Below are positions 38,055-40,563 of a stretch of DNA of 40,563 bases, piece by piece. The notes under the pieces are model-generated. The model worked only from the letters and a program-made list of their open reading frames with translations, did no database searches and was not told the DNA's origin. The stretch comes from Natrialba aegyptia DSM 13077 (GTDB taxonomy: Archaea; Halobacteriota; Halobacteria; Halobacteriales; Natrialbaceae): NCBI RefSeq assembly GCF_000337535.1, contig NZ_AOIP01000020.1, forward strand, positions 32,725 through 73,287. Direction: 5' to 3'. The number at the start of each line of letters is the position of its first letter. Position 1 is the stretch's first letter. A program made the position numbers and the translations under genes.

Positions 38055-38831
38055 TCAGTCGTCGCCTGCAGCCTCGACGTGTCGGGCGACCGCTCGGTCA
38101 CACGTCGCATCGAGACACCGCGTCCCGCCGTGCGTTTCGAACGTCGGCAGGCCACAGTCACACTCCCCGTCGACGACGCCCGCGGGCATCGCGAAGCCGG
38201 TGTCGCACTCGGGATAGTGCTCACAACCGGCGATGAGTCCGCCGCGCCGGAGGATGCGAAGGTCGCCGTCACAGTTCGACTCCGGACAGTCCCATTCGCG
38301 GTCGAAGGCCTCTCTGACGGCCTCATCGAGCGATTCGCAGTTGCGATCGAGACAGACGTCGAACGCGAGGCCGCGCTCGACGCGCATCCGCGGCAGCCCG
38401 CAGTCGCAGTACGATTGGTCGTCCTTTATCGTCGCGTCGGTCGGGATGCCGTAGCGCGTCCCGCAGTCGACGCAGTGGACGCCCTTCGAGCGGACGAGTT
38501 CACCGGCGCAGTTCTCGTTTTGGCACGTTCCAACGGGCGTCCCGGCCGCAGAGGCGGGGTAGTGAGCGAAGCCGTCCTGGTCGTGGGCTGCGATTCGCAG
38601 GGTCTGGGTGTCCTTCTTCGCGACGAGCGTGAAGTCGCCCGCACGGTCGCTGGAGACGCTGTCGGCGCGCGTGAGCCAGGCGACGGGCTGGTAGCCGTCG
38701 ATGTCGTGGACGAGGACGGTGTTGTCGGGTTTGACGATCGTCGTCACCCGGCCGCGGTACTCCGATCGGTCGTCGGCCTCGGCGATCACGGTACAGTCGC
38801 CGGCGAGGACGCGAATCGCGTCGTCGATCAT
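38055..38831 (-). CDS. NucS N-domain-like protein with topoisomerase-type zinc fingers
   Basis: 258 residues. The first ~95 ('AIRVLAGDCTVIAEADDRSEYRGR', 'VKPDNTVLVHDIDGYQPVAWL') match the N-terminal DNA-binding domain of NucS/EndoMS (DUF91 family). Its C-terminal nuclease domain is absent and replaced by about three Cys-rich segments ('CQNENCAGELVRSKGVHCVDCG', 'CDCGLPRMRVERGLAFDVC', 'CPESNCDGDLRILRRGGLIAGC') of the topoisomerase C4 zinc-finger type. It probably binds DNA or nucleic-acid ends without cutting. The ATG at 38831 lies 27 bp from a strong TATA box. It is upstream of endA (67 bp gap) and is the last resident-type gene before the AT-rich tail. Confidence 0.85.
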   Translation of the reverse strand: MIDDAIRVLAGDCTVIAEADDRSEYRGRVTTIVKPDNTVLVHDIDGYQPVAWLTRADSVSSDRAGDFTLVAKKDTQTLRIAAHDQDGFAHYPASAAGTPVGTCQNENCAGELVRSKGVHCVDCGTRYGIPTDATIKDDQSYCDCGLPRMRVERGLAFDVCLDRNCESLDEAVREAFDREWDCPESNCDGDLRILRRGGLIAGCEHYPECDTGFAMPAGVVDGECDCGLPTFETHGGTRCLDATCDRAVARHVEAAGDD

Positions 38832-38852
38832 AGGCTGGCTGATGCCGATTCC

Positions 38853-38864
38853 TATTTAAATATA
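38853..38864 (-). promoter_or_regulatory. TATA box of the NucS-domain/zinc-finger gene
   Basis: TATATTTAAATA on the minus strand, centred 27 bp upstream of the ATG at 38831, one of the best TATA boxes in the window; leaderless transcript expected. Confidence 0.6.
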
Positions 38865-38883
38865 TGGGTGATACACTTACTAG

Positions 38884-39084
38884 TCAGTACGCCATCAGAA
38901 GACGGTACACTTTTACTGTCGATCTTCGGTCCACTCGGTTACAGATCACGATAAGACCGTCAGTGTCTGTGTCAGTGACATCGTCATCATTGAATATTTG
39001 TTCCCAAAGCTGCCGTGATACCATACATTCTGGATGGGATCGTCTGGCAATTTGTTCTGCTAACCAATAGTCGCGAATCAACAA
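38884..39084 (-). CDS. Possible small gene or gene remnant
   Basis: A 66-codon frame with a TTG start ('DYWLAEQIARRSHPECMVSRQ' region, then an Asp/Thr-rich stretch and 'RRSTVKVYRLL'). It has intermediate base composition at the junction between the GC-rich and AT-rich parts. No family recognised and no Shine-Dalgarno. It could be a remnant or chance. Confidence 0.25.
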   Translation of the reverse strand: MLIRDYWLAEQIARRSHPECMVSRQLWEQIFNDDDVTDTDTDGLIVICNRVDRRSTVKVYRLLMAY

Positions 39085-39167
39085 CTCTATTTCATACTAC
39101 AATCAGTCATTTGATATTGATGTTAGCTATCGTTAGCAACTATTGAAAATATGTTCTACATTAATAT

Positions 39168-39335
39168 ATGTGGGAGTTCAGTGACATTAGTGGATATATT
39201 TCTAGTGAAGATTCTATTAAAACCTGTATGAGAGTTCGTCTAATTAAATCTGGTTGTAATCTCTATCTTGATATAGGATTCAGAAAACTTAAGTCTGAAG
39301 ATAAATTGAAGTCCATGATTCTACTAACGAGATGA
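39168..39335 (+). CDS. Possible small protein in the AT-rich tail
   Basis: A 55-codon ATG frame ('MWEFSDISGYISSED' ... 'LYLDIGFRKLKSEDKL') with A/T-rich codons and an AAAATAT box about 20 bp upstream. The peptide looks foldable but I recognise no family; in AT-rich DNA a frame of this size can occur by chance. Confidence 0.25.
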   Translation: MWEFSDISGYISSEDSIKTCMRVRLIKSGCNLYLDIGFRKLKSEDKLKSMILLTR

Positions 39336-39468
39336 TTCATGATGCTGATCATTGTAGCGCTATTTACGCCAGCCACTCTTATACTGTCAATCGAAAGCTA
39401 CACAGAGGCGGGGTTACGATAGTTAAGTCACAAATATTTAAATAACATTAATTGAATAATATGGGCCC

Positions 39469-39476
39469 TTATATAG
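39469..39476 (+). promoter_or_regulatory. Candidate TATA box of the Tat-signal ORF
   Basis: TTATATAG would set transcription to start near 39,500, about 55 nt before the first possible translation start of the Tat-signal ORF. Confidence 0.35.
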
Positions 39477-39553
39477 TGAATGATGACGTGGCAGGACCAA
39501 CAGAAATTTCCTATAGGAATAGCTTTTTATCTTGTTAACAGTATTATCATTGT

Positions 39554-40563
39554 CTGTCTTCAAATAGAAGACAGATAGATCGGCGTAAAGTATTATCAAG
39601 TATTAGTGGAGCAAGCATTGGTTTATTTGGGATTGGGAACACTCCGATAACTACAAGAGCAGATCCCATTGATCCGTGCCCACCTGATTGTGGGAGTGGT
39701 GTTGGAGGTGACTCGGATACACAGACATTGGACACTTCTTCGGGTGAATATCGATTAAGCAGTATTATGTATGCTGATATACATAATTCCTGGCCAGATC
39801 CAGGTGACTACCCAGAATATATTTATAGGATTAAAATAAGTGGCATGGGAACTGCTAATATTGGTGGAAACGATACTTCATCAATATTGCGGAATATGTT
39901 TACTATAGACGTAACTGGCGATGTGGTTCAAGCAAGCCAACCCATTGAACCATATGCAATAGGTGGATATGAGTATATGCAAACTAGAGAGGATGATCAC
40001 GATGATTCATTTTATGATGAGGAGGCGGGCGCAGCAGCCGTTGTTTCTGGTGCATTTGACATTGGGATTGCGATTGGACCGGCCATCCTTCGGAGGACAG
40101 TACCCGGTATTATAGCAACAATGGCTTTCGCATATCTTACTCAAAGTTCAGGTGGTGAATCTGGCAACCATTACCAACGTATTTGGGAGTGGGATGATGA
40201 TATTGGACAAGGAGTTACTGAGAGTGCAGTATATGCTGACCTAACAGTAAGAATTAAAAAAGGTAATACGTCAAATATTGATGTGGAAGGAGTGACGACT
40301 TCTTCGTTACCTGTCAATAATGCTTATGCAAGTGATGATTTTGATCTCACAGCACCAGATAATGTCGGGAATCTTAGAACTATGAATACATCAGACTTGC
40401 GTAAAAGAGAACATATTAGGGTTGCTGAAGATGAATTAAGTTCACAACAGAAGAATATGTTATTAAGTAAAGAAACTCGAGAGATACTCCAAAATGAGGG
40501 CGAATTAATAATTGGTGCAAATACTGTTGTTGGTCAATCTATCTTAGAACTTCGAAAAAAAAA
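39554..40563 (+). CDS. Tat-signal secreted protein of unknown function (3' end beyond window, non-canonical start)
   Basis: The frame is open from 39539 to the last base, so the gene continues outside. It opens with a clear twin-arginine signal: 'RRQIDRRKVLSSISGASIG' followed by a short hydrophobic stretch and an Ala-x-Ala-like region. No ATG, GTG or TTG lies in frame before the signal. A stop at 39536-39538 bounds it, and the only near-cognate start in a sensible place is CTG at 39554; the first ATG (39767) would drop the signal. Later parts contain a Cys pair ('DPCPPDCGSG'), an acidic stretch ('REDDHDDSFYDEE'), a hydrophobic segment ('AAAVVSGAFDIGIAIGPAIL', then 'PGIIATMAFAYL') and a Trp motif ('YQRIWEWDDDIGQG'). 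I recognise no family. It may be a live gene with a rare start, a decayed gene, or carry a sequencing error. Confidence 0.6.
   Translation, partial: MSSNRRQIDRRKVLSSISGASIGLFGIGNTPITTRADPIDPCPPDCGSGVGGDSDTQTLDTSSGEYRLSSIMYADIHNSWPDPGDYPEYIYRIKISGMGTANIGGNDTSSILRNMFTIDVTGDVVQASQPIEPYAIGGYEYMQTREDDHDDSFYDEEAGAAAVVSGAFDIGIAIGPAILRRTVPGIIATMAFAYLTQSSGGESGNHYQRIWEWDDDIGQGVTESAVYADLTVRIKKGNTSNIDVEGVTTSSLPVNNAYASDDFDLTAPDNVGNLRTMNTSDLRKREHIRVAEDELSSQQKNMLLSKETREILQNEGELIIGANTVVGQSILELRKK

Follow-up and report, generated by a model that had tools for sequence, protein, structure and literature searches.

An apparently acquired gene for a Tat-exported protein without a standard start codon in Natrialba aegyptia, and a lipoprotein gene linked to several of its relatives

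Introduction

A long reading frame that opens with a twin-arginine (Tat) export signal and offers no standard codon at which translation could begin raises the question of whether it is a working gene, a recently silenced one, a sequencing artefact or no gene at all. Such a frame lies at the right-hand end of the 40,563-nucleotide stretch of Natrialba aegyptia DSM 13077 DNA analysed here, which is referred to as the window (contig NZ_AOIP01000020.1, positions 32,725 to 73,287). An earlier note on this DNA had considered a rare CTG start, a recent inactivation or a base-call error, and had likened the encoded protein to halocins or toxins. The features of the locus are collected in Table 1.

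Table 1. Features of the exported-protein locus, in window positions
Feature	Position	Strand	Remarks
AT-rich island	38861..40563	.	Extends in the contig to roughly 40720-40790; placed by GC and flank matches
Possible TATA box TTTTTAT	39524..39530	+	Centre 27 nt before the CTG
TAA stop	39536..39538	+	In frame; upstream limit of the frame
CTG at start-codon position	39554..39556	+	GTG in G109; 46/75 nt identical onward, ungapped
Exported-protein gene	39554..40561	+	336 codons inside the window, 340 when the contig is added and N taken as one base
Tat signal peptide	39554..39661	+	DRRKVL at 39578-39595; aligned with G109 and G225; end placed by eye
Cys-Pro/Gly stretch	39662..39703	+	Matches CCGGGGG of G109
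Central hydrophobic segment	40025..40141	+	Inside the conserved family core
C-terminal region	40361..40561	+	Absent in the short relatives G225 and G233
Poly-A run at gene 3′ end	40555..40563	+	Single N (40564) next in the contig

Results and discussion

The open frame and its start

After the in-frame TAA at 39536-39538, 341 codons are open from 39539 to the end of the window, in agreement with the long continuous frame described before. The codons that precede the RR motif include no ATG, GTG or TTG, which bears out the earlier description of a textbook twin-arginine signal with no standard start ahead of it, and the earliest standard start in the frame, TTG 39728, already lies beyond the signal. 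The only near-standard codons ahead of the Tat motif are the CTG at 39554-39556 and ATA 39575; the latter is a possible start, yet it would leave two residues before the RR motif, compared with six to ten in the relatives inspected. An upstream frameshift was also considered, and the frames before the gene are short and, judged by eye, none of them resembles a Tat n-region.

The Tat signal of the window protein is NRRQIDRRKVLSSISGASIGLFG, in which DRRKVLSSISGASIGLFG has the RR motif close to the N-terminus, with a moderately hydrophobic stretch after it, and aligns with the signals of two relatives, G109 and G225. The Cys-Pro stretch, the Asp/His-rich acidic stretch and the central hydrophobic segment that had been remarked upon as an odd mix could each be located in the protein, as DPIDPCPPDCGSG, as EDDHDDSFYDEE and as a segment with a best 19-residue mean hydropathy of 1.84 from residue 161, respectively. 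The protein contains two cysteines, both close to the N-terminus.

The window copy contains no internal stop or frameshift, as would be expected for a live or only recently silenced gene. At the 3′ end it is not truncated by the end of the contig, which runs on past the window; the window stops at 40563 because the next base is a single N (40564, L003:3289) within an A9-N-A9 run. A TAG follows four codons beyond the window, at the equivalent of 40574-40576 if the N is counted as one base, and the end of the gene in the contig lies close to the ends of two long relatives. The 3′ end therefore appears nearly complete, but the exact frame after the N is uncertain, and the A9-N-A9 run may be a candidate slippage site.

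The N also bears on the idea that sequencing or assembly put the CTG in place of a standard start codon by mistake, as a single wrong base would be enough and the same gene carries an unresolved base at its other end. The N, however, sits in a homopolymer and represents another kind of error, and isolated substitution errors are as a rule rare in an assembled consensus; an error of this sort is accordingly improbable.

Relatives of the exported protein

A full-length relative is found in G109 (E 3.2e-49, 35% identity), which is the only other genome with one among 125 of the same taxonomic family, and it likewise lies in AT-rich DNA. Its GTG falls exactly on CTG 39554, with no gap between this codon and the RR motif, and 46 of the 75 bases from there onward agree without gaps, compared with 22 of the 45 before it. 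The earlier suggestion that the CTG sits where a start would be expected is upheld by this alignment, which shows CTG 39554 to mark the ancestral position of the start.

Three further relatives are incomplete. Halorussus litoreus HD8-51 (G177) has the body of the protein, with 37-38% identity to the window protein, and the signal region is missing; with a GC content of 0.58 its gene is not AT-rich. In G225 (E 3e-8) and G233 the protein is shorter and stops ahead of the C-terminal region. The earlier note had envisaged that the homologues might all begin at the internal ATG without the signal, but G109, G225 and G233 carry the signal and of these relatives G177 alone is without it. The Halorussus litoreus member (L030:5974-6897), its signal-peptide region gone, is apparently another damaged copy, and the short member of G233 (L133:4077-4880) lies near a gene for a 615-residue multi-pass membrane protein, maybe of a mobile element.

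Profile searches, which matched in 8 of 391, 7 of 125 and 8 of 392 genomes with the window genome counted each time and unrelated rows still included, bring in G038, G080, G081 and G099. For G038 and G099 the profile E values are 6.9e-7 and 7e-4 and the profile-to-sequence support is weak (17.6% and 32.2%), while for G080/G081 the E value before they entered the profile was 6e-4 and the probability is 67%. Four more members, G107, G197, G018 and G039, are joined to the family chiefly through the signal and a CCGGG-like stretch. An ATG is present at a fitting site before the RR motif in the raw frames of G225, G038, G080/G081, G107, G018 and G039. The rows with weak E values were mostly unrelated proteins by their frames and were dropped, as was G067, whose 400-residue frame (L104; core profile E 0.005) combines HELAHVRQQ with a glycine-rich hydrophobic segment, resembles injection-system cargo and was judged unrelated. 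The family is sparse and fast-diverging within the haloarchaea.

With these relatives at hand, a fortuitous open frame in AT-rich non-coding DNA, with an RR motif by coincidence, can hardly be entertained. The missing start codon is the one observation in favour of this idea, which is refuted by the homologues over the full length and the body of the protein. The length of the frame also speaks against it, since the longest stop-free frame of the island has 345 codons and the maximum among 2000 simulated first-order Markov islands is 225 (mean 93).

The AT-rich island and its setting

The exported gene is the sole long frame of an AT-rich island of about 1.9 kb, in which the GC content of 500-base windows is 0.35-0.42, compared with 0.57-0.74 elsewhere in the surrounding 15 kb, edge-straddling windows apart. 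The flanking genes are high in GC, whereas the GC3 of the exported gene is 0.25. No RNA family was found in 38700-40563 and no tRNA in the surrounding 15 kb.

Matches of the flanks to relatives within the genus break off at window position 38860 and restart at 40721-40792, and the window protein has no match among six other genomes of its genus. In G006 the flanks are 94-97% identical to those of the window and are separated by 32 bases, which makes a near-direct junction. In G001-G004 the interval is filled by other genes, and in G005, where the flanks are on separate contigs, genes like those in G001-G004 lie beside them. These genes (L089, L090, L091, L092, L095) form a phosphonate-type ABC transporter, kinase-like and HD-domain cluster that is missing at this place in the window genome and in G006, while a piece of a mazG-like gene persists to the right of the island in the window genome. 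The names of neighbouring genes used here and below (phosphonate-type transporter, HD, mazG, SDR, carboxypeptidase, HAD) were read from the sequences, without a family search. The presence of other genes at the site in relatives, together with the mazG-like remnant, suggests that the island seems to have replaced native genes. Judged by its relatives and its setting, the frame in the window is a real gene, acquired horizontally, whose product is a Tat-exported protein of approximately 340 residues.

A lipoprotein gene near the exported gene

At nine of the 15 family loci, and at none of 25 controls, a gene for a lipoprotein of about 140 residues, always of one family, is located no more than about 2 kb from the exported gene. 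Here it must be considered that the control loci are mostly about 3 kb and the test loci mostly about 10 kb (103 vs 148 kb in total) and that G065 is closely related to G075 and G080 to G081, which leaves approximately seven independent positive cases. The positive loci are G109, G065, G075, G099, G107, G197, G080, G081 and G038, and the negative ones are those of the window, G177, G225, G018, G039 and G233. The 25 controls are the original 26 minus L016, which proved to be the G197 member; L092, positive and overlapping with the G004 pair described below, did not serve as a control.

Two profiles were used. The first, whose seeds include the lipoproteins of G109, G065 and G075 among others, detected the gene at seven of 14 loci, and its positives that are not among the seeds are G197 (5e-20), G099 (1e-16), G107 (7e-14) and G038 (2e-5). 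The extended profile, seeded with the four loci G099, G107, G197 and G004, of which the first three are counted positives, detected it at nine of 14; the lipoproteins of G080 and G081 were detected by this profile only, and G233, scanned later, was negative and brought the count to nine of 15.

The distance of the lipoprotein gene from the exported gene ranges from near zero to about 1.7 kb. The two genes adjoin in G109, where the lipoprotein has 141 residues, in G099, G107 and G197, and also in G004 and G040; the lipoprotein gene is divergent in G197, convergent in G107, and weak and divergent in G038. The G004 and G040 loci were reached by searching from the lipoprotein and consist of an exported protein directly followed by the lipoprotein. 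Their exported proteins were tested as possible kin of the family and showed no significant similarity (probability 2.6%), and the two loci are used here solely as examples of pairing with this lipoprotein family. The G004 pair (L134:580-1969), located in AT-rich DNA, has as its neighbour the HAD-like gene found to the right of the window island.

No partner lipoprotein was found in the window island, where the best local hit covers 9 residues (E 0.92). The family as a whole occurs in 66 of 125 genomes, mostly alone, and two of 30 scanned lipoprotein loci (G109, G040) had an exported neighbour of this layout. The lipoprotein accompanies six of eight lineages with the C-terminal region and none of the four short forms (Fisher 0.03), in a post hoc comparison in which frames were judged by eye, weakly tied members were included, the scraps of G065/G075 were omitted and G080/G081 were counted once.

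Loss of the exported gene and different pairs at a shared site

At several loci the lipoprotein gene is found without an intact neighbour. G083 matches G040 along the locus minus 1123 bp that hold most of the exported gene of G040, and its lipoprotein is intact; the comparison of L077:1477-2025 (G083) with L078:1468-3139 (G040) is a clean case of an exported gene lost and a lipoprotein retained. In G065 and its near relative G075 a scrap of the exported gene remains behind the intact lipoprotein (about 16 bits, with 3.2 the best of 40 shuffled sets); a tblastn of three members against these lipoprotein loci did not detect this scrap. The lipoproteins of G064 and G066, from the same genus as G065, and of G028, from another genus, are without a significant scrap. 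Among four species of the genus of G065 the dN/dS of the lipoprotein is 0.08-0.37, and the value for G083 against G040, two sequences of low divergence, is higher (0.44).

A single site between SDR-like and carboxypeptidase-like genes holds different pairs, differently arranged, in G109 and G107, where the exported gene of G107 is interrupted by a TGA. At this site neither profile found a pair in five other genomes of that genus, and three further genomes of the genus gave no SDR match at the cut-off. In G102, the site of the G107/G109 pairs holds a low-GC frame of 121 residues resembling a small membrane protein (L124:292-657).

The loss of the exported gene with the lipoprotein kept and the different pairs at one site together form the pattern of bacteriocin loci, and in some relatives the lipoprotein appears to have outlived the exported gene, as immunity genes do.

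A possible effector and immunity pair

The gene arrangements are best accommodated by a halocin-like family of effector and immunity proteins, of which the window copy would be a partnerless member that has lost its standard start and is made weakly or not at all; the probability of this reading as a whole is estimated at roughly 0.45. The exported protein would be a halocin-like secreted effector, its hydrophobic core making contact with the target membrane, and the lipoprotein would be a cell-surface immunity protein that shields the producer from outside. The window copy would have arrived, or been left, without its partner, would then have lost its standard start and would now be a recently silenced orphan effector, produced weakly or not at all. 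The C-terminal region, which the short forms lack along with the lipoprotein, is perhaps the active part of the exported protein, as in halocins H4 and C8, from which C-terminal fragments are cleaved off. The linked lipoprotein gene lends indirect support to the halocin- or toxin-like character put forward earlier; at the level of sequence no tie to a known halocin emerged.

A somewhat doubtful alternative is that the exported protein and the lipoprotein constitute a surface pair for adhesion, envelope or nutrient functions, in which the lipoprotein anchors or assists its partner and neither is a weapon. Export signals on both proteins, the wide and mostly solitary occurrence of the lipoprotein family and the absence of any matching toxin model agree with such a role. 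The patchy distribution, the AT-rich islands and the different pairs at one site, on the other hand, speak against it, as does the loss of the larger gene while the lipoprotein stays.

The effector and immunity reading can also be carried further, to a polymorphic weapon system in which each Tat-exported protein with a membrane-inserting core is paired with a surface lipoprotein that confers immunity, and which would comprise cassettes swapped at shared sites, an exchangeable C-terminal effector region, orphan immunity lipoproteins and, in the window, an orphan effector with a leaderless mRNA starting with CUG. As a joint claim this is rather unlikely, and no such polymorphic system of exported proteins and lipoproteins was found in the models searched or in the accessible portions of the literature.

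None of the library models gives a convincing fit. The window protein has no match in Pfam, PHROGs, PADLOC or PDB sequences, and NCBIfam returned an acylphosphatase model alone, far under the cut-off (E 0.14). The relatives and the lipoproteins gave weak matches only, below curated cut-offs or, in PHROGs, with E above 0.01, the lowest E being 0.003 for a flagellar hook model against the G109 lipoprotein (17.5 bits vs a cut-off of 230). No match came from plasmid or phage records; in viral contigs there was no pattern match and the 34 stretches of a later scan included no relative, and a scan of genome contigs gave 24 stretches and no relative, with a further scan yielding one, that of Halorussus litoreus. 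AlphaFold2 on a two-sequence alignment reached a mean pLDDT of 29.5. As covered by titles and the beginnings of abstracts, with subscription papers mostly outside this scope, the literature describes no such exported-protein/lipoprotein pair. A secreted effector with an anchored immunity protein is a known kind of system; its haloarchaeal form, if real, would be new.

Initiation at CTG or silencing

In the competing view of the window copy, translation of a leaderless mRNA does begin at CTG 39554, and small amounts of the protein are produced and exported. The intact frame, which is far longer than expected by chance, the TTTTTAT box 27 nt upstream and the position of the CTG on the GTG of the relative all favour this view, and a GUC start has been reported in Halobacterium salinarum (cited in the accessible text of PMC4574771). 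The position of the box would possibly fit a leaderless transcript, but AT-rich DNA has many such boxes by chance. According to the accessible text of PMC4574771, GUG in a haloarchaeal short-leader reporter was 5-37 times less efficient than AUG and no activity was obtained with UUG, which weighs against a working CTG, and native leaderless GUG starts are reported for 118 transcripts in that of PMC4983044. By word counts, "CUG" is absent from both haloarchaeal papers (PMC4574771, PMC4983044), which likewise counts against a working CTG, as does the absence of a partner lipoprotein from the island.

Because GUG is poor and UUG inactive in the reporter and "CUG" does not occur in the haloarchaeal papers, recent silencing of an orphan is favoured over live CUG initiation, which is possible but on the unlikely side; with no linked partner and no standard start, the window copy would most likely be silenced. 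It also offers a natural test of leaderless CUG initiation in haloarchaea.

Comparison with known systems

Halocin H4 (HalH4) of Haloferax mediterranei is a Tat-type exported protein of about 350 residues with a central hydrophobic segment. The mature halocin C8 is a small Cys-rich peptide, with immunity residing in the precursor itself, whereas the window protein has its two cysteines in the N-terminal part and several of its relatives have a separate lipoprotein gene. As given in the accessible text of PMC12893001, a protease cuts halocin H4 to yield an active C-terminal fragment, and the active fragment of halocin C8 is set free from the C-terminal part of a haloarchaeal precursor. The activation of HalH4 would fit a separable C-terminal region of the window protein, and the accessible accounts of halocin H4 mention no linked lipoprotein, unlike what is seen at several loci of the present family. 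A 20-base pattern from the published halH4 primer matched none of 392 genomes, a set that possibly does not include Haloferax mediterranei.

Outside the halocins, some species with colicin M-type bacteriocins have a periplasmic immunity protein anchored in the inner membrane (PMC5277000, accessible text). These belong to another domain of life with a different envelope and export route, and no relation is expected. In the Thermococcales a hypervariable Ig-domain module provides an example of archaeal hypervariable genes in the context of conflict and self/non-self recognition (accessible text of PMC8416519), which differs from the present family in architecture and lineage.

If the pair does consist of an effector and an immunity factor, genome mining would gain a clear signature for archaeal weapons. 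To our knowledge, an immunity protein has been identified for few of the antagonistic proteins of archaea. Lone lipoproteins could, if the effector and immunity reading is true, record past conflicts. The window genome itself has a lone AT-rich lipoprotein gene of the partner family on contig C31 (L132:2698-3102, G000), which is perhaps an orphan immunity gene.
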